A DNA stretch of 41,585 bases from NCBI RefSeq assembly GCF_000564855.1, contig NZ_AYXG01000136.1:1-41585 (forward strand), given 5' to 3'. This document shows, in pieces, positions 23,241 to 32,669 of the stretch (positions are counted from its first letter, which is position 1; each line of letters starts with the position of its first letter). The DNA comes from Actinokineospora spheciospongiae (GTDB lineage Bacteria; Actinomycetota; Actinomycetes; Mycobacteriales; Pseudonocardiaceae). A program made the position numbers and the translations under genes. The notes under the pieces were generated by a model. The model ran no database searches, was not told the origin of the DNA, and saw only the letters and a program-made list of their open reading frames with translations.

Positions 23241-24659
23241 GTGTCGAGCACCGTGATCATCATCCTGGTCGTCGTCGCTGTCGTGCTGCTCGCCGCCCTG
23301 GTCACCGGGGTCGTGCTGGCGCGCAGGCGGCGGATCACCCTGGACAAGCCCGAGGCCGTCGAGAAGCCGAAGGGCGGCGGCTACCAGGCGGGGGCGGGCA
23401 TCAGCCTCGCCCCGGCCAAGCCGAAGGACGCCCCGCTCGCCCCGCCCGCGCACCCGGCCGGTGAGCGCACGGAGGTCGACGGCCAGCCCGGCGTCGGCGA
23501 CGACGCCTCGGTGCCGCGCGACTCCGAGAAGCGCGGCATCGTCGACATCGCGCTCCCGGACGCGACCACCACCGGCACGCCCCCGACCGGCACCGCGCCC
23601 GTCGAGCCCGCCCCGGTCTCCTCCCTGCCCACGGACAAGCTCCCGGTGCAGGCCGAACCGGTCACCGAGCAACTGCCCGTCCAAGGCGAACCGCTGACCG
23701 AGCAGTTCCCCGCGCAGGACGAGATCGAGCCCACCGCAGGTCGCCTGGAGCGGCTGCGCGGACGGCTCTCCCGCTCCCGGTCCACCCTCGGCCAGGGCCT
23801 GCTCGGCCTGCTCGGCGCCGGTGACCTCGACGAGGACTCCTGGACCGAGGTCGAGGACACCCTGCTGCTGGCCGACCTCGGCGCGCGCACCACCGCGGAG
23901 GTCGTCGAGCGGCTGCGCGCCGAACTGGTCTCCCGGGGCGTGCGCACCGCCGACGGCGCCCGCGCCCTGCTGCGCGAGGTCCTGGTCGACGCGCTGCGCC
24001 CCGACCTCGACCGCGCCGTGCGCGCCCTGCCGCACGGCGACGGCGACGCCAAGCAGCCCGCCGTGGTGCTGGTCGTCGGCGTCAACGGCACCGGCAAGAC
24101 CACCACCACCGGCAAGCTCGCCCGCGTCCTGGTCGCCGACGGCCGCACGGTCGTGCTCGGCGCGGCCGACACCTTCCGCGCCGCCGCCGCCGACCAGTTG
24201 CAGACCTGGGCCGACCGGGTCGGCGCCGAGGTCGTGCGCGGCAAGGAGGGGGCCGACCCGGCGGCGGTCGCCTTCGACGCGGTCAAGCGCGGTCGCGCCG
24301 CCGCCGTCGACGCGGTGCTGGTCGACACCGCGGGCCGCCTGCACACCAAGGTCGGCCTGATGGACGAGCTGGGCAAGGTCAAGCGGGTGGTGGAGAAGCA
24401 GGCCGAGGTGGACGAGGTCCTGCTGGTGCTCGACGCCACCACCGGGCAGAACGGCCTCACCCAGGCCAGGGTCTTCGGCGAGGTCGTGGAGGTGACCGGC
24501 ATCGTGCTGACCAAGCTCGACGGCACCGCCAAGGGCGGCATCGTCTTCCAGGTGCAGCGCGAGCTGGGCGTCCCGGTCAAGCTCGTCGGCCTCGGCGAGG
24601 GCCCCGACGACCTGGCCCCGTTCGAGCCGGTGGCCTTCGTCGATGCCCTGCTCGGCTGA
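23241..24659 (+). CDS. ftsY: Signal recognition particle receptor FtsY
   Basis: A 472-residue SRP receptor GTPase that docks SRP-ribosome complexes at the membrane. Residues 4-26 form an N-terminal TM anchor, typical of actinobacterial FtsY. Residues 30-165 are a variable Pro/Glu/Ala region containing two copies of an LPVQxEPxTEQ repeat. The NG domain follows: helical N part at about 168-260, G1 GVNGTGKTTTTGK near 275, DTFRAAAADQL, G3 DTAGRLHTK, TKLDGTAKGG (G4), and GLGEGPDDLAPF at the end. GTG 23241 is preceded by GAGGA and a strong hairpin. smc and ftsY are neighbours in relatives; here an 8.5-kb insert divides them. Confidence 0.96.
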   Translation: MSSTVIIILVVVAVVLLAALVTGVVLARRRRITLDKPEAVEKPKGGGYQAGAGISLAPAKPKDAPLAPPAHPAGERTEVDGQPGVGDDASVPRDSEKRGIVDIALPDATTTGTPPTGTAPVEPAPVSSLPTDKLPVQAEPVTEQLPVQGEPLTEQFPAQDEIEPTAGRLERLRGRLSRSRSTLGQGLLGLLGAGDLDEDSWTEVEDTLLLADLGARTTAEVVERLRAELVSRGVRTADGARALLREVLVDALRPDLDRAVRALPHGDGDAKQPAVVLVVGVNGTGKTTTTGKLARVLVADGRTVVLGAADTFRAAAADQLQTWADRVGAEVVRGKEGADPAAVAFDAVKRGRAAAVDAVLVDTAGRLHTKVGLMDELGKVKRVVEKQAEVDEVLLVLDATTGQNGLTQARVFGEVVEVTGIVLTKLDGTAKGGIVFQVQRELGVPVKLVGLGEGPDDLAPFEPVAFVDALLG

Positions 24660-24699: not shown

Positions 24700-24744
24700 G
24701 TCGACGGGGCACTGGTCGATGGGGCATGGGTCGATGGGGCACCG
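24700..24744 (+). repeat. Three 15-bp tandem repeats upstream of a response regulator
   Basis: Units GTCGACGGGGCACTG, GTCGATGGGGCATGG and GTCGATGGGGCACCG lie at 24700, 24715 and 24730, ending 7 bp before the regulator ATG. An in-frame read-through could also translate them. They may be regulatory or remains of an earlier N-terminus. Confidence 0.75.
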
Positions 24745-24751
24745 TGGGGGG

Positions 24752-25435
24752 ATGGACCCGGTGCGCCTGTGGCTCGTCGACGACCACGAGCTGGTGACCG
24801 AGGCGCTGTCGGTCCGCCTCGGCGCGTTCACCGACCTGTGGGTGCTCGGACGCTGCGCCACCGACGACCCGAACCTGCTCGCCAGGGTCGAGCGGGGGCG
24901 GCCGAACGTGATCACCGTCGACCCGGACTCGGCCGGGGTCGACGAGGTCGAGCTGTTCACCTCGCTGCGGCTGGCCGCCCCCGGCGCCCGGCTGGTGGTG
25001 CTGTCCGGCCTCGACGACGCCGACCGGGTCGTGGCGGCGGCCCGGCTCGGCGCCGACGCCTGGGTGCCCAAGGAGTCCGGGGTCGCGGACCTGGTGCAGG
25101 TGCTGCGCGGGGTCTGCCGGGGCGAGGGGTGGTTCCCGCCGCGGCACCTCGGGGCCGTGCTGCGCGGCCTGCGCGAGGAGGTCAGCCGCTACCGCGAGGG
25201 CGGCGGGCCGCTCGCCGCGCTGACCGGCCGCGAGCGGCAGGTGCTGGTCAGCATGGTCGACGGGCTGCGCGGCACCGAGATCGCGGCCGAGTTGGGGCTC
25301 TCGGCGAACACGGTGCGTACACACACGCACTCCCTCTACCGCAAGCTCGGCGTCCACTCCCGCTTGGCGGCGGTCAGCACGGCCCGCGCGGCCGGACTAC
25401 TACCGACACGACGTGATCCCCACCAGACAACGTAA
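24752..25435 (+). CDS. NarL/LuxR-type response regulator 1 (orphan)
   Basis: A 227-residue regulator. The receiver has the acidic pair in LWLVDDHELVTEAL, a probable phosphoacceptor D57 in NVITVDPDS, Ser in VVLSG and Lys in WVPKES. The LuxR-type HTH (about 163-222) reads LTGRERQVLVSMVDGLRGTEIAAELGLS, then NTVRTHTHSLYRKLGVHSR. No histidine kinase gene is adjacent. ATG 24752 is chosen because it begins the receiver; an in-frame start further up (24680) would translate the 15-bp repeats. The regulator is followed after 103 bp by the GT2 membrane protein gene and is the likely controller of that cluster. GACAAC elements around 25426-25515 are candidate sites. Confidence 0.85.
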   Translation: MDPVRLWLVDDHELVTEALSVRLGAFTDLWVLGRCATDDPNLLARVERGRPNVITVDPDSAGVDEVELFTSLRLAAPGARLVVLSGLDDADRVVAAARLGADAWVPKESGVADLVQVLRGVCRGEGWFPPRHLGAVLRGLREEVSRYREGGGPLAALTGRERQVLVSMVDGLRGTEIAAELGLSANTVRTHTHSLYRKLGVHSRLAAVSTARAAGLLPTRRDPHQTT

Positions 25436-25489
25436 GAAATCTCATCCTCTGGGCTGACCCCATGAGGAGGACGCCCGCCTACGCTCTGT

Positions 25490-25515
25490 GACAACAGTCG
25501 GGGGTTGTCGACAAC
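25490..25515 (+). promoter_or_regulatory. GACAAC/GTTGTC operator-like repeats
   Basis: GTTGTCGACAAC (25504-25515) is a perfect 12-bp palindrome. A third half-site GACAAC lies at 25490-25495 and a fourth at 25426-25431. TACGCT at 25480-25485 could be the -10 box, placing the palindrome about 18 bp into the transcript of the GT2 gene. Confidence 0.45.
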
Positions 25516-25538
25516 GGGGTGGCAATGGGGTTCCGCAC

Positions 25539-28388
25539 GTGATTCCTTGGCTCCTGGCCCTGCTGGTGGTGGGCATCGGTCCGCTGGTGAACGTGGTCCT
25601 CGGCGTGCTGCGCCGCGACCGCGAACGCGGCTCGCTCGTCGGCGGTGTGCGCGAGAAGAAGGTCCTCGGCGAGGTCGCCGTGGTCATCGCCGCGCACGAC
25701 GCCGAGTCCGAGGTCGCCGAGGCGCTCGCCGCCGCCACCCGGCTGGTCGCGCGCGGCGACGTCTTCCTGGTCTCGGACGCCTCCACCGACCGCACCGCCG
25801 AGATCGGCAGGGAGCACGGGGTCAACGTCGTGGAGACGGTGTCGCCGCTGGGCCGCTCCGGCGCGGTCGTCGCCGGGCTCACCGGGTTCCGGGTGCCGCA
25901 GGACTACCGGTACGTGCTGGTCCTCGACGTCGACCACCGGCCGCACCCGGCGTTCCTCGACCGCACGCTGCCGATCTTCGACGACCCGGACGTGGTCGCG
26001 GTGGCCGGGTTCGCCCGCACCGACTGGACCACCGCCCGCCGCGGCCCCCTGGGCAGGCTGGTCACCGCCCACCGGGGCCGGGCCTACGCGCTCGCGCAGT
26101 TGCTGCTGACGATCATCCGCACCCGCCCCAACGCCGAGGCCGCCCGCGTCCTGCCCAGCCCGGCGCGGATGTTCCGCACCTCGGTGCTGGAGCGGGTCGA
26201 CCTCGCGCCCGAGGGCGTGCCGGTCGCCGACTTCGACGTGTCCAACCAGATCTACCGCGCGGGCCTGGGTCGGGTCGTGGTGGTGCGCGGCGCGGTGGTC
26301 GGCACCCGCGACCCGGACACCCCGCGCGGTTACGTCCGCCAGGCCCGGCAGTGGGCGGTCGGCTTCTGGCAGGCGGTGCGCCGCAACGGGCTGCGCCGCG
26401 GCCCGCAGGTGCTGGGTCTGGGCTGGTTCGCGGTGGAGAGCGTGCTCACCTCCGCCGTACTGCTCGCGCTGCCGTTCCTGCTCGGCTTCGGGCTGCTGCC
26501 GGTGTGGACGGTGCTGCTGGGCGTGTTCCTGCCCGACCTGCTGCTGACCGCCCTGGTCGCGCTGCGCCAGCGGCAGCCCGGGTACCTGCTGCCTGCGCTG
26601 TTCCTGCCGCTGATGCGACTCGTCGACGCGGTGGTCCTGCTGTCCGCGCTGCCGCACGCGTTCCGCGACCGGCCCGCGACCGCGCCCTGGCTGAGCCCGG
26701 TGCGCACCGCGCAACCGCCGCCGCCCGAGGGGCCGTGGTGGCGCTCGAGGCCTGCGGCGGCCGTGGCGTGGCTGGTCGGGGTCGCCGCCGGGGTGGTGCT
26801 GACCCTGCGGGTCGCCGCCGCCGTCTCGACGCTGCCCGCCACCGCCTCCGAGCCGGGGCTGGTCGACGCCGTGTTCGGCCGGGTCGCCGGGTTCGGCGGG
26901 GCGGTGCCGGAGGGCATGGTGCCCGCCGCCGCCCAGCTCGCCGGGTACGCCTCGCTGACCGGGGCGTTCGACCGGCACGCGACCGTGCTGACCGGTGTGC
27001 GCGAGCTGTCGGTGGTCTGCGCGGCCGTCTTCGCCGCCGGGTTGCTGGTGGCCGCGGCGGTCCTGCGGCTGCGGCCGGTGGCCGTCGCGGTCGCCCTCGC
27101 CGCGGTCGCGGTGTGCCCGCCCGCGATCGGCGTGCTCGCCGGTGCCGGGCCGGGGCCGATCGCCGCCGCCTGGCTCGCCGTGGCCGCCGTGCCGCTGGCG
27201 CTGGCCGCCAGGGTCGGCTGGAAGGCGGTGCCCGCGGCGGTCATCCCGGTCGCCGGGGCCGTCGTCACCGTGCCCGCGCTGGTCGTCCCGGTCGCCGTCG
27301 CCGCCGCGGCCTGGTGGGTGGGCGACCGGGAGCGGGCGCGCGAGGTCCGCCGGGTCGTGGTGGCCGTCGCCGTGCTGGTGGCCGGTGGCGCGCTCGCCGC
27401 GCTGCTGGCCGGGTTGGGCCTGGTGGGGGTGTCGGACGCCGCGCCGATCGCCGCCGCGCAGCGGGTGTGGCTGCTGGTGGCGGTCGCCGTGGTCGCGGTC
27501 GGCGGTCTGGTCCGCGGCCGGGCCCGCGCCGGGTCGGCCGGGCTGCTGGCCGTCGCCGCCGGTTCGGCGGTGCTCGACTCGGACGTGCTGCTCGCCACCG
27601 CGGTGGCCGGGGCCGCGCTCGGGCTGGCCGCCCTGCTCGACGGGACCGCCACCGAGCGGTCCGCGGTCCGCCGGGTCGCGGTCGGGGTGGCCGCGCTGGC
27701 CGGGCTCGCCGTCGTCGGCGCGGGGGCGGCGGCCGTGCTGCCGGTCGCGCCCGCCGTCGACCACCGGGGCGCCGCCGACTGGTTCACTGTCGCCGCCGCC
27801 CCCGGCGCCACCCTCGCCGCGCCGCCGCTGCTGGTCTCCGACCTGCGCCGCGACCTGCGCGGCCGGGCACCGCAGCAGGTGCGCCCGGAGGGCGGCTACG
27901 CCCACTACACCGTGTCCCCCGCCGACGGCGCGGGCCTGGTGGTCGCCCGGTTCGACGGCCTCACCGCCCGCCTCGCCGACGGCACCGCCGTGCACAGCGG
28001 CGGACCCGACCGGACTGCGGCGGGCGCCCAGCTCGCCGACAACCCCCGCATCCAGAGCCCGGAGGAGGTCAAGGCGGTCCTGCGCGCGGGCGCCCTGGAC
28101 TTCCGCGCCATGGCCGTGCTCGCCGAGATCGGCGCCCAGCACGACCTGGTCGTCGCCGACACCTCGAAACCGGTGGCGGAGAACGGTTCGGACCTGCCCG
28201 ACCGGACCGTCGTCCTGTCGAGTGTGGACGGGCGGCCCGCGGGTGACCCGGCCGTCGTCGACACCCTGCGCGCCTGGGTCCAGGCCCAGCGCGGCCCCTA
28301 CGCCCCCAGCGACGTCCGCCCCACCGGGGACGGCCGCGCCGCGCTCGACTGGCGCATCCCCAACCCCGGTGACCCCGCCCCCCGGTGA
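25539..28388 (+). CDS. GT2 glycosyltransferase fused to multi-TM domain and exported tail
   Basis: A 949-residue membrane protein. An N-terminal TM (1-23) is followed by a GT2 catalytic domain (about 45-280): VVIAAHDAESEVAEAL, LVSDASTDRTAEI, the metal-binding VLDVDHRPH, and RQARQWAVGFWQAV, a QxxQW variant of the processive-synthase QxxRW motif. Roughly 12 TM helices occupy about 295-740. The last 200 or so residues (from ADWFTVAAAPGATLAAPP) are hydrophilic and probably extracytoplasmic; they contain NPRIQSPEEVKAVLRAG and VVLSSVDGRPAG. It may assemble and export a glycan or glycolipid. GTG 25539 is chosen because its likely promoter lies at 25480; an upstream GTG 25488 would precede the transcription start. 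The product is unknown. Confidence 0.78.
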   Translation: MIPWLLALLVVGIGPLVNVVLGVLRRDRERGSLVGGVREKKVLGEVAVVIAAHDAESEVAEALAAATRLVARGDVFLVSDASTDRTAEIGREHGVNVVETVSPLGRSGAVVAGLTGFRVPQDYRYVLVLDVDHRPHPAFLDRTLPIFDDPDVVAVAGFARTDWTTARRGPLGRLVTAHRGRAYALAQLLLTIIRTRPNAEAARVLPSPARMFRTSVLERVDLAPEGVPVADFDVSNQIYRAGLGRVVVVRGAVVGTRDPDTPRGYVRQARQWAVGFWQAVRRNGLRRGPQVLGLGWFAVESVLTSAVLLALPFLLGFGLLPVWTVLLGVFLPDLLLTALVALRQRQPGYLLPALFLPLMRLVDAVVLLSALPHAFRDRPATAPWLSPVRTAQPPPPEGPWWRSRPAAAVAWLVGVAAGVVLTLRVAAAVSTLPATASEPGLVDAVFGRVAGFGGAVPEGMVPAAAQLAGYASLTGAFDRHATVLTGVRELSVVCAAVFAAGLLVAAAVLRLRPVAVAVALAAVAVCPPAIGVLAGAGPGPIAAAWLAVAAVPLALAARVGWKAVPAAVIPVAGAVVTVPALVVPVAVAAAAWWVGDRERAREVRRVVVAVAVLVAGGALAALLAGLGLVGVSDAAPIAAAQRVWLLVAVAVVAVGGLVRGRARAGSAGLLAVAAGSAVLDSDVLLATAVAGAALGLAALLDGTATERSAVRRVAVGVAALAGLAVVGAGAAAVLPVAPAVDHRGAADWFTVAAAPGATLAAPPLLVSDLRRDLRGRAPQQVRPEGGYAHYTVSPADGAGLVVARFDGLTARLADGTAVHSGGPDRTAAGAQLADNPRIQSPEEVKAVLRAGALDFRAMAVLAEIGAQHDLVVADTSKPVAENGSDLPDRTVVLSSVDGRPAGDPAVVDTLRAWVQAQRGPYAPSDVRPTGDGRAALDWRIPNPGDPAPR

Positions 28389-28433
28389 CACTTTCCGGGA
28401 ACAACGATTCCCGTCGCGTGATAACACTTTCCG
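28388..28433 (+). promoter_or_regulatory. Candidate promoter/direct repeat before the DUF4397 gene
   Basis: ACACTTTCCG occurs at 28388-28397 and 28424-28433. Between them GGGAAC-AAC-GATTCCC holds the inverted repeat GGGAA/TTCCC. GGAAC (28398-28402) with TGATAA 16 bases later resembles an ECF-sigma -35/-10 layout. The 116-bp gap suggests the DUF4397-sortase pair has its own promoter. Confidence 0.4.
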
Positions 28434-28504
28434 CCCCAGGACGACTCCCTTCACAGTCTTCCCTTACCGCTTCCTTTGGTTCCACCCGATGAAGGACCAC
28501 CGCG

Positions 28505-29371
28505 ATGAGCACAACCCTCCGGCGTTCCCTGGTCCCGCTGCTCGTCGCCGGTGTCCTCATGGCACTGACCGCGGGCCTCCTGCCCGCGAGCGCGGCCACC
28601 GGCACCTACCTGCGCCTGGCCCATCTCTCCCCGGACACCCCGAACGTCGACGTGACCGTCACCAGCTTCGGCCGCCCGGACTGGTCGGTGCGGCTGGGCG
28701 GCGTCGGCTACGGCGACGTCTCCGGCTACCAGCGCATCGAGCCGGGCACCTACACCATCGCCATGCGCCCCGCCGGGGCCGACCCGGCGAGCGCCCCGGT
28801 CATCTCCGCGACCCTGGACGCGGGCGAGGGCAACGCCTACACCGTCGCGGGCCTGGGCAAGTTCGACGGCCTGGCGCTGCGCGTGCTCAACGACGACATC
28901 AGCCTGCCGCCCAACGGCCAGGCCCGGATGCGGGTGGTCAACGCCGCGCCCAACGCGGGCAACCTGACCATCGACCGGGCCGGGCAACCGGTGACCGGCC
29001 AGGCCGTGTTCGGCGCCGCCACCGACTACGCGCTGGTGCCCTCGGGCGCGTCCGCGTTCCAGGTCGCCCCGATCGGCGCGGGCCCCACCGAGCTGTCGGT
29101 CACCCTCGACCCGGGCGGCGTCTACACGGTGCTGGTGCTCGAACGCGAGGGCAGGCTCGTCGCCGAGGTCAAGGCGGACGCCAAGGGCGCCGAGGTGGTG
29201 CCCGCGGGCGGCGTGGAGACCGGCTTCGGCGGCACGGCGGACGCCACCGGCACCGGCAGCGCTGACACCGAGGGCTCGGGTGTCGAGGTGGTGGCGCTGG
29301 GCCTGCTGCTCGCGGCCTGCGCCGCAGGCGGGCTGTTCGCCGCCGCGCTGCCGCGGCGCCGCCGGGCATGA
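28505..29371 (+). CDS. Exported DUF4397 protein with sorting-signal-like C-terminus
   Basis: A 288-residue surface protein. Residues 1-31 are a Sec signal peptide ending ASAATG. Two DUF4397-type beta units follow: YLRLAHLSPDTPNVDVTV at about 35-52, and RMRVVNAAPNAGNLTI near 141-156, giving a beta-rich fold. At 232-244 lies VPAGGVETGFGGT, then a spacer, a TM (about 262-281) and RRRR at 284-287: the tripartite layout of a sortase signal without LPXTG. Its ATGA overlap with the class F sortase gene makes it the obvious substrate. DUF4397 has no assigned function. ATG 28505 has GAAGGA upstream. Confidence 0.85.
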   Translation: MSTTLRRSLVPLLVAGVLMALTAGLLPASAATGTYLRLAHLSPDTPNVDVTVTSFGRPDWSVRLGGVGYGDVSGYQRIEPGTYTIAMRPAGADPASAPVISATLDAGEGNAYTVAGLGKFDGLALRVLNDDISLPPNGQARMRVVNAAPNAGNLTIDRAGQPVTGQAVFGAATDYALVPSGASAFQVAPIGAGPTELSVTLDPGGVYTVLVLEREGRLVAEVKADAKGAEVVPAGGVETGFGGTADATGTGSADTEGSGVEVVALGLLLAACAAGGLFAAALPRRRRA

Positions 29372-30222
29372 GCGCACCAGCGGCGGGCAGGCCCGTCGCC
29401 GCGTGCAGGCCCGGTGCCGAGTCCGGGGCTGGCATCGCAGGCAGTTCCGGCGCCGCGCGCAGTTCCGGCGCTGCGCGCAGGCCCGGCGCCGCGCGCAGGC
29501 CCGGCGCCGCGCGCAGGCCCGGCACCGCGCGCAGGCCCGGCACCGCGCGCAGACCCGGCACCGCGCGCAGACCCGGCGCCGTGGGCGGGCTCGGCACCGC
29601 GCTGCGGCTGGTCGCGGTGGCCACGGTCTTCGCGGTCGCCGGGTGCCAGGCAGGGGGCACCGCCGAGCCCGCGCCGCCGCCGGGCGGGCCGGTGTCCTGG
29701 GCGCCGGTCGCGGGCCAGGACGCGGCGGACGGCCCACCGCCCACCTGGGACGGCGGGTCCACCGCGGACCCCGCGCCGAAGCGGCCGACGCACCTGCGCG
29801 TCCCGGCCATCGGGGTGGACACCGACCTGGTCGACCTGGCCGTCGACGGCACCGGGGTGCTGGTCCCGCCGGAGTCCGCTGCGGTCGCCGGGTGGTTCGC
29901 CGCCGGGGCCGCCCCGGGTTCGGTCGGCCCGGCGCTGCTGGCCGGGCACGTCGACTCCCACGCCGGACCGGGTGTGTTCTACCGACTGGTGGACCTCAAG
30001 CCGGGCGACCGGGTCGAGGTGGGGCGCGCGGACGGCTCGACGGTGGTGTTCTCGGTGACGGGGACGCGCCGCTCGCCCAAGGCCGACTTCCCCACCGCCG
30101 AGGTCTACGCGCCCACCCCGGGTCCGGAACTGCGCCTGGTCACCTGCGGCGGCGCGTTCGACCACTCGGCCCGCAGCTACCGCGACAACATCATCGTCGA
30201 GGCGACGCTCGCCGGGCCGTGA
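29368..30222 (+). CDS. Class F sortase
   Basis: A 284-residue transpeptidase expected to cleave a sorting motif and join the surface protein to the wall or another acceptor. Catalytic residues are H194 (LLAGHVDS), C260 (LRLVTCGG) and an Arg in HSARSYRDNIIV (R269 or R272). Residues 1-78 are a cytosolic tail in which 26-72 are repeats of a six-residue RRPGAA/RRPGTA unit encoded by an 18-bp minisatellite. The TM at 79-92 ends in VAGC, so C93 could be a lipobox Cys. The linker to about 138 is Pro/Gly/Ala-rich and the beta-barrel is about 140-284. Its start overlaps the DUF4397 stop by 4 bp. A later start would omit the repeats, but no strong ribosome-binding site favours one. Confidence 0.9.
   Translation: MSAPAAGRPVAACRPGAESGAGIAGSSGAARSSGAARRPGAARRPGAARRPGTARRPGTARRPGTARRPGAVGGLGTALRLVAVATVFAVAGCQAGGTAEPAPPPGGPVSWAPVAGQDAADGPPPTWDGGSTADPAPKRPTHLRVPAIGVDTDLVDLAVDGTGVLVPPESAAVAGWFAAGAAPGSVGPALLAGHVDSHAGPGVFYRLVDLKPGDRVEVGRADGSTVVFSVTGTRRSPKADFPTAEVYAPTPGPELRLVTCGGAFDHSARSYRDNIIVEATLAGP
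29441..29602 (+). repeat. 18-bp minisatellite in the sortase N-terminus
   Basis: Eight 18-bp units begin at 29441, 29459, 29477, 29495, 29513, 29531, 29549 and 29567, with a degenerate ninth at 29585. Units 3 and 4 are identical, as are 5 and 6; edge units are more diverged. The unit keeps frame and encodes a basic six-residue repeat. Confidence 0.9.
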
Positions 30223-30332
30223 TCCCGGCGCCCGCCACCGGATCGGGGGCATCCGCCCGCGCCGCCCACCGCGGCGTGGCACCCTCGGTCGACGAACACT
30301 CCATCGGAGCCGACCACCGGGGGGAGCGCCCA

Positions 30333-30383
30333 GTGCCACCCGACCGCGCCGCCGCCGGACCGCCCGCCCCGGCGCGCCGGTGA
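30333..30383 (+). other. Possible 16-residue coupled leader peptide
   Basis: GTG 30333, with GGGGAG six bases upstream, opens a 16-codon Pro/Ala/Arg-rich frame whose TGA (30381-30383) overlaps the GTG start of the following response regulator. The regulator lacks a good site of its own, so translation may depend on this leader. Confidence 0.35.
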
Positions 30384-31063
30384 CCGCCCCCGACGGGGAG
30401 CCGCGCCGGGCGGACGTGGTGGTGTGCGACGACCACACCGTGTTCACCGAGGCGCTGGCCGCGGTGCTGGAGGCGCACGGCTTCCGGGTCCGCGACACCG
30501 CCGCCACCCTGGCCGGGGCGCTCGCCGCGGTCCGCGCGGCCACCCCGGCGATCCTGCTGCTCGACCGGCACCTGCCCGACGGCGACGGCGTGGCCGCCCT
30601 GCCCACCCTGGCCGCAGCCTCCCCGCGCACCCGGATCGTCCTGCTCAGCGCCGACGGCGACCCCGCCGCGGTCCGCCGCGCGGTCGACGGCGGCGCCGCG
30701 GGCTACCTGCACAAGACCGCGGGCGTCCGTGATCTCGCCCACGCCCTGCGCCGGGTTCTCGACGGCGAGACGGTCGTCGACGTGCCCGCCGGGCGCTCGC
30801 CCCGGCATTCCCCGGACGCCGCCGCGGCGCACCGGCTGGCCGCGCACCTCACCCCGCGCGAGCGCGAGTGCCTGGCCCTGCTCGTGGAGGGTGCGAGCAC
30901 CGCCGCGATGGAGCGGCGGCTGGGCGTCTCGGGCACCACGGTGCGCACCCACGTGCAGGCGCTGCTGACCAAGCTGGGCGTGCACTCGCGGCTCGAAGCG
31001 GCCTCGCTCGCCGTCCGCCACCGGCTGCTGCTGCCGCAGCCCGATCGCGCGGCGGGTACCTGA
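30380..31063 (+). CDS. NarL/LuxR-type response regulator 2 (orphan)
   Basis: A 227-residue regulator of the same length as the one at 24752. The receiver has D17-D18 in VVVCDDHTVFTEAL, phosphoacceptor D62 in LLLDRHLPDGDG, Ser in VLLSA and Lys in YLHKTAG. The HTH (about 156-215) reads LTPRERECLALLVEGAS, then TTVRTHVQALLTKLGVHSR. It shares the ending KLGVHSRLxAxSxA with regulator 1, suggesting paralogy. No kinase gene is adjacent. It lies 157 bp after the sortase gene; GTG 30380 overlaps the stop of a possible 16-codon leader. It probably regulates the sortase/GT2 cluster, by context only. Confidence 0.85.
   Translation: MTAPDGEPRRADVVVCDDHTVFTEALAAVLEAHGFRVRDTAATLAGALAAVRAATPAILLLDRHLPDGDGVAALPTLAAASPRTRIVLLSADGDPAAVRRAVDGGAAGYLHKTAGVRDLAHALRRVLDGETVVDVPAGRSPRHSPDAAAAHRLAAHLTPRERECLALLVEGASTAAMERRLGVSGTTVRTHVQALLTKLGVHSRLEAASLAVRHRLLLPQPDRAAGT

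Positions 31064-31091: not shown

Positions 31092-32669
<1,578 letters not shown>

Follow-up and report, generated by a model that had tools for sequence, protein, structure and literature searches.

A conserved cassette of a class F sortase and its candidate substrate, with an unexpected, predicted GT-A/GT-C partner, in Actinokineospora spheciospongiae

Positions 1 to 41,585 (forward strand) of contig NZ_AYXG01000136.1 (assembly GCF_000564855.1), called the window below, belong to the 7.5 Mb draft genome of Actinokineospora spheciospongiae. The window carries a locus of five genes, whose nearest named relatives were those of other Actinokineospora, encoding a LuxR-type response regulator (RR1), a large membrane glycosyltransferase (GT), an exported protein of the DUF4397 family, a class F sortase (SrtF), and a second response regulator (RR2). 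Comparative analyses showed the locus to be real and conserved, a cassette of sortase and candidate substrate accompanied by a partner that was not expected and that fold models resolve into a GT-A and a GT-C half.

Gene content and conservation of the locus

All five genes lay on the + strand, and coordinates and family matches bore out this arrangement as given in the preliminary description.

24752-25435, + strand: RR1, LuxR-type response regulator, 227 amino acids, REC and GerE domains (PF00196 1.1e-16, PF00072 2.8e-8)
25539-28388, + strand: predicted GT-A/GT-C fusion protein, 949 amino acids from the GTG at 25539 (PF00535)
28505-29371, + strand: DUF4397 exported protein, candidate sortase substrate, 288 amino acids (PF14344)
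29368-30222, + strand: SrtF, class F sortase, 284 amino acids (NF033748)
30223-30379, no strand: position of a kinase-like gene in four of six relatives, empty in the window
30380-31063, + strand: RR2, LuxR-type response regulator, 227 amino acids, REC and GerE domains (PF00072 2.4e-19, PF00196 8.4e-15)

The reported overlap of the DUF4397 stop with the sortase start was likewise found, in an ATGA at 29368-29371. An alternative upstream GTG at 25488 would lengthen the glycosyltransferase to 966 amino acids. Both flanking genes were named by eye: ftsY at 23241-24659 and, at 31092-32669, a malate-synthase-like gene.

Among 14 loci fetched by DUF4397 similarity, all six from Actinokineospora had the five genes in identical order, and the arrangement is therefore not a matter of chance; an ftsY match lay upstream in five of these six and a malate-synthase-like match downstream in three. 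The genome of A. spheciospongiae itself encoded a second triplet of partner, DUF4397 protein, and SrtF (L011, on G000:C59, 6889-10359, - strand), with the tail GVETGAGG and without a GT2 domain. The preliminary description had proposed a search for co-occurrence of the five families in related genomes and would have taken its absence as a refutation. That search gave a graded answer: DUF4397 and class F sortases were widely paired, the membrane glycosyltransferase joined them in a subset of loci, and all five genes, regulators included, were seen together in Actinokineospora only. The counts given below are not independent of each other, and Fisher p-values computed on them take no account of kinship between genomes.

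DUF4397 was detected (E value 0.001) as 21 genes in 80 Pseudonocardiaceae genomes. By coordinates, 19 of them adjoined a class F sortase-like gene, and four of these shared one frame with it; the exceptions were one gene in G050 (L199) and a weak match in G055, an unfetched locus for which no sortase was listed nearby. Class-wide, DUF4397 occurred in 46 of 197 genomes, and 27 of the 30 loci scanned, the window's own included, had a class F sortase-like match no more than about 1.5 kb away. Of the other three, L303 was cut by a contig end, L322 had its sortase further off behind a glycoside hydrolase family 8 (GH8) gene (L274), and L316 had none.

DUF4397 and sortase formed one open reading frame (ORF), or an open frame, at L018 (P0012), P0098, L182, L187, L193, and L195, and a substrate-sortase fusion was also found at L058. 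We do not press these fusions as telling, as for P0012 and P0098 a slight shift of frame where the genes overlap at ATGA could have the same effect. At L274 and L279, a GH8-family gene stood between DUF4397 and SrtF.

The DUF4397 tail and its pairing with class F sortases

The DUF4397 protein matched PF14344 over two stretches (120.3 bits, 8.5e-35, cut-off 30.6), began, by eye, like a signal peptide, and ended in VVPAGGVETGFGGTADATGTGSADTEGSGVEVVALGLLLAACAAGGLFAAALPRRRRA, which comprises a motif, a hydrophobic stretch, and a basic end.

29201-29233, + strand: putative sorting motif PAGGVETGFGG, residues 233-243, of a motif class found in 120/120 proteins
29282-29350, + strand: C-terminal transmembrane (TM) helix of the putative sorting signal, about residues 260-282, from hydropathy
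29354-29365, + strand: basic tail RRRR, from the sequence

Across the window protein and 119 homologues listed (of 1446 found), the motif class G[GAP]xx[TAS]GxG was present in 120/120, each time with a Pro two residues ahead of it, though the pattern made no such demand; the hydrophobic stretch and the basic end were each present in 119/120. Judged by sequence, the tail is a predicted three-part sorting signal with a non-LPXTG core. The earlier proposal that the sortase processes the DUF4397 protein thereby gained a candidate signal, the processing itself being a prediction. No LPXTG or LAXTG pentapeptide occurred in the window tail, and TIGR01167 was not listed for it at E 0.1. Its resemblance to sortase A and class E signals (LPXTG, LAXTG) is that of a tripartite tail with an xTG core; it differs from them in that a small residue replaces Leu, V or P stands at the second place, and P-x-G and G-x-G lie upstream and downstream. 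The tag is not wholly unknown, having been noticed by NCBIfam curators as the “GVDTG sorting domain” (NF058571, GVDTG_CTERM, cut-off 29 bits), with which the window tail shares the G[VI][DE]TG motif, the TM helix, and the basic end. Four of nine DUF4397 proteins scanned scored above that cut-off, among them the orthologue P0005 of A. bangkokensis (35.8 bits).

SrtF scored 177.4 bits against the class F model NF033748 (cut-off 166) and has the catalytic residues in place, namely, His194 in GH (193-194), Cys260 in TCGG (259-262), and Arg272 in SYRDN (270-274); its transpeptidase activity is a prediction. A likely lipobox (AGC) was found at residues 91-93. Ahead of it lies an Arg-Pro-Gly-Ala-rich N-terminal stretch with ARRPG[AT]-like repeats, encoded by the following array, which was absent from the five orthologous sortases translated.

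29383-29602, + strand: 18-bp tandem array, 12.2 copies (Tandem Repeats Finder)

Class F sortases had been called poorly characterized in the preliminary description, in agreement with the available portions of two papers that state their physiological role as unknown (PMC13251363, PMC6998099). In the first of these, as far as its available portion goes, two class F sortase neighbors with a signal peptide, a TM helix, and a basic tail were called possible substrates and left unanalyzed for want of a known pentapeptide.

Class F sortases proved common in actinobacteria, with matches at E 0.001 in 74 of the 80 Pseudonocardiaceae genomes (over the cut-off in 55) and in 146 of the 197 class genomes. 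The family loci comprised the rows over the cut-off (all but one contig-end row, per the table) and some weaker rows. ORFs upstream of each sortase on the same strand were searched for a strict pattern, PxGxxx[TA]GxG no more than 80 residues ahead of the stop. Because this pattern had been shaped on 30 of the family loci, it was tested outside the family as well. It was present at 90 of 126 distinct Pseudonocardiaceae sites (for two of the 126, the copy scored was truncated at the locus end) and at 35 of 49 class-wide sites outside the family (one edge site dropped); at six further family sites, the pattern matched only in frame with the sortase. As controls, the strict motif was found at 0/30 class E sortase loci and in 7 of 460 other gene-like ORFs of the family loci, each of the seven ending in a further substrate-like tail. 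From the other direction, 52 GVDTG matches exceeded the cut-off in the 80 genomes. For 41 of them, a class F sortase lay within 1 kb, and for another one at 1.2 kb.

Unexpectedly, a considerable part of these tagged proteins had no TM helix. Of the 90 family motif neighbors, 34 stopped 3 to 13 residues past the strict pattern without a hydrophobic stretch, as in PKGGVETGFGGTAQI and PRGAPQTGDGSLAP (L121, L150, L157, L112, and 30 other family sites). Sequencing error is an unlikely cause, since such tails occurred in many genomes. A lipobox pattern was found in 27/34 of the sortases with TM-less partners versus 25/56 of the rest. Six TM-less proteins scanned had no Pfam match over the cut-off, and a seventh, encoded on C51 of the genome studied here, had a VWA domain; ending in PRGGVATGGGTVVP, it belongs to a third class F sortase pair of that genome (L012/L057, G000:C51). 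Outside Pseudonocardiaceae, judged by the same threshold, a hydrophobic stretch was present in 32 of 37 motif tails and only L246 of the other five was clearly TM-less; TM-less tails may therefore be mostly a trait of this family. TM-less tails and GAPETG forms would mostly fall outside NF058571 or score low on it, although they were not scored singly.

The glycosyltransferase partner and the flanking regulators

The protein first described as a 949-residue GT2/multi-TM protein indeed had a GT2 domain (PF00535, 46.6 bits, cut-off 23.3; DVDH at 130, QARQW at 268). Its AlphaFold2 model (predicted local distance difference test, 80.0) refines that description to two predicted enzymes in one chain, the second half modeled in the GT-C fold of the protein O-mannosyltransferase (PMT), oligosaccharyltransferase, and ArnT enzymes.

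25668-26678, + strand: GT-A half, residues 44-380, hyaluronan/cellulose-synthase-like (motifs SDASTDRT, DVDH, DFDVS, QARQW)
26730-27758, + strand: predicted GT-C half, residues 398-740, protein O-mannosyltransferase/oligosaccharyltransferase fold, conserved Glu438 after the first helix
27756-28385, + strand: C-terminal domain, about residues 740-949, conserved mark of the partner family (alignment A1; no Pfam-A match)

Neither the sortase nor the GT2 protein had a sequence match in the PDB at E 0.001. Profile A3 retrieved three cellulose synthase sequences (best E 4.2e-6) and otherwise nothing below 0.09, and the GT-C reading therefore rests on the folds. Pfam PMT and PMT_2 had no match in the window protein; PMT_2 was matched over its cut-off (1e-11) in the relative L279. 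Given a GT-C second half, a lipid-linked-sugar route becomes structurally plausible on the models, which sharpens the earlier proposal that the protein makes or exports a glycan or lipid-linked carrier, the product itself being predicted.

Two known systems offer comparisons. The Ppm1 and Pmt O-mannosylation of actinobacteria, as set out in the available part of PMC5882110, similarly has a GT-A enzyme feeding a GT-C enzyme via a polyprenyl-phosphate sugar; in the window, by contrast, the predicted halves form one chain, the GT-A is cellulose-synthase-like, the donor loop has diverged, and the enzyme is linked to a sortase and its candidate substrate. Bacterial cellulose and hyaluronan synthases share the fold and motifs of the GT-A half, which in the window is fused to the modeled GT-C; no PilZ was among the Pfam matches of the window protein, and Bcs partners were not searched for.

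The distribution of the partner was followed with profile A1, built on the C-terminal domain. In the 80 Pseudonocardiaceae genomes, it identified 8 sites in 6 genomes, all 8 beside DUF4397 and SrtF. Class-wide, it had a match in 24/197 genomes, with 31 sites listed besides the window's own genome, of which 20 were fetched; both DUF4397 and SrtF were near the partner at 12 of these 20, spanning six families beyond that of the window, and the partner gene followed the sortase at two (L280, L290). GT-C partner, DUF4397, and class F sortase thus travel together in several actinobacterial families. The remaining eight were five f14 proteins, one site on a short contig, and two weak matches. Three of the f14 partner-like proteins, when viewed, had a purH/folD-like setting (named by eye).

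The N-terminal module of the partner was variable. It was GT2 in the window and in most of P0125-P0137, scored below the GT2 Pfam cut-off in the shortened Actinokineospora orthologue L020, and was missing from the C59 partner and, by length and lack of a Pfam match, from L276. In the Pseudonocardia partner P0141, it came near a daptide protease model (95.9 bits, cut-off 300), and L024 was alike by eye. Three Pseudonocardia and Geodermatophilus partners (P0141, scored; L024 and P0144, by eye) had an N-terminal module near proteases of ribosomally synthesized and posttranslationally modified peptides, and P0144 also ended in a glutamine cyclotransferase domain. The L279 locus had, after SrtF, a GT2 gene resembling polyprenyl-phosphate sugar synthases, below all NCBIfam cut-offs. 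By these comparisons, the predicted GT-C and the C-terminal domain are the shared core of the partner family, and GT2 was probably an addition, because a profile search detected the window-type GT2 domain in none of the 20 class-wide partner loci.

As for regulation, no kinase gene lay between the five genes in the window, and none adjoined RR1 in the ORF lists of the loci. Between SrtF and RR2, four of the six relatives (L016, L019, L020, and L021) had an ORF of 214-262 codons that ended on the RR2 start. The L016 product matched HATPase_c (1e-10); the Pfam scan covered L016, and the ORFs of L019-L021 were compared only by C-terminal likeness to the L016 protein. tblastn with the relatives' kinases found no kinase-like gene in L017, L018, or the window (the best match, E 0.075, fell at another place in the window), and a kinase relic sought between SrtF and RR2 was not found. 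On this evidence, RR2 is an orphan by loss of its kinase partner, because a kinase-like gene is present in four of six relatives at the position where the window, L017, and L018 have none. The description of two 227-residue LuxR-type regulators without kinases therefore stands for the window as to sizes and gene content and needs qualifying for RR2 by its kinase-like neighbor in the relatives. The earlier proposal of dedicated regulation stands on weaker ground: RR1 and RR2 accompanied the other three genes in all six Actinokineospora loci, and this five-gene unit was not seen beyond that genus. LuxR-type helix-turn-helix segments were found near the DUF4397-sortase pair in four other genomes, downstream in G022 and G060 and upstream in G042 and G075. 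Upstream of the GT2 gene (25436-25538), a similar block, CTCAT...TGACCCC...GCCTAC, was shared by eye with L017 and L018 and is a possible promoter or regulator site.

Proposed function and alternatives

We propose, with a probability of about 0.6, that the cassette displays one dedicated surface protein. RR1 and RR2 would probably control the operon. The exported DUF4397 protein would be held by its TM tail, and SrtF, probably an outer-face lipoprotein, would cut it between Thr239 and Gly240 (VET/G), a position predicted from the general rule that sortases cleave between Thr and Gly (stated in the available part of PMC10924467). SrtF would then join the product to an amino acceptor, most simply a peptidoglycan precursor, which we favor, if not strongly. 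The GT-A half, using a nucleoside diphosphate sugar at the inner face, would load a sugar on a polyprenyl carrier or extrude a glycan, and the GT-C half with the C-terminal domain would transfer sugar outside, onto the DUF4397 protein or a neighboring wall glycan. By analogy with the Ppm1/Pmt pathway (available part of PMC5882110), one chain would do both the loading and the transfer. Most likely, the GT-A/GT-C protein supplies a surface glycan, perhaps on the DUF4397 protein; that the latter is the sugar acceptor is a tentative suggestion.

Several observations weigh against this proposal. The fold models draw on 21 and 27 sequences, and the GT-C half keeps E438 without the YDHPPLGW loop present in L274 and L279, a loop that, along with acidic residues after TM1, we take to be a functional mark of the GT39/PMT family. 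On NF058571, the window tail reached 14.4 bits, or 22.5 when the genome was scanned, and fell short of the 29-bit cut-off, probably owing to a longer linker. The strict motif was absent at 36/126 family sites (the two truncated copies among them), many of them with near forms such as PTGGVATGGY and PKGAPETGGD, and at 14/49 class-wide sites, of which two had a looser pattern (that in L228 looks spurious) and 12 had none. Since 10 of the 52 GVDTG matches were far from any listed class F sortase (seven at more than 190 kb, three on contigs without one), the pairing is common and not strict. Five f14 partner-like proteins (L281-L283, L285, and L288) had neither DUF4397 nor a sortase nearby, G078 of the same genus lacked DUF4397, and plain anchoring does not explain the TM-less tails in 34/90. 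As to experiments, in the available parts of the sources, deletion of all four class F sortases of Actinoplanes missouriensis gave no visible phenotype and normal sporangia (PMC13251363), and the class F enzyme of C. acnes is said to take LPXTG (PMC13257024).

Of the alternatives, an exopolysaccharide locus fares best, in which a processive GT-A would extrude a beta-glycan, the GT-C would decorate it, and the anchored DUF4397 protein would bind the glycan or tie it to the wall. The synthase-like GT-A fold leaves a processive glycan open, and the GH8 genes in L274 and L279 point the same way; we nevertheless hold it to be the less probable account, given a window-type GT2 profile in 0/20 class-wide partner loci and the GT2 match below the cut-off in L020, with no search made for other polysaccharide genes near the locus. 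Alternatively, the DUF4397 tail might be an ordinary membrane anchor in an old operon, with a sortase that has other substrates, as the silent quadruple mutant (PMC13251363, available part) and the 10 distant GVDTG matches would allow. This appears unlikely, as the motif is conserved besides the TM helix, is kept in tails without one, and was found at none of the 30 class E sortase loci. As first suggested, the GT protein might make a glycan or lipid-linked carrier to which the sortase joins DUF4397; this reading has the gene neighborhood in its favor and is highly improbable, given that, to our knowledge, the sortases characterized so far use amino acceptors and that class F sortases mostly occur without the partner (6/80 family genomes versus 74/80).

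The reading of a displayed surface protein can be extended, at long odds, to a joint one: one-enzyme-one-substrate class F sortases would read P-x-G-[GA]-[VP]-x-[TA]-G-x-G, also at a free C-terminus, where a lipoprotein sortase would hold the pair at the membrane, and the product of the DUF4397 branch would be glycosylated by the linked GT-C in a coupled glycosylate-and-anchor machine. No report of this tag or triad was found in the literature searched, outside which most subscription journals lay and which included the available parts of PMC13251363, PMC6998099, PMC13293333, PMC13257024, PMC10924467, and PMC5148588.

The interest of the cassette is that it makes the question of class F substrates testable and offers a concrete guess at the target protein of the sortase. 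The shared tag, found beside most of the class F sortases examined, points to a protein and a bond on which experiments can focus, and TM-less tails, if they belong to true substrates, would run counter to the textbook view of what a sortase acts on. The conserved link to a predicted GT-C, fused here to a synthase-like GT-A, suggests a route to a surface glycoprotein or glycan.

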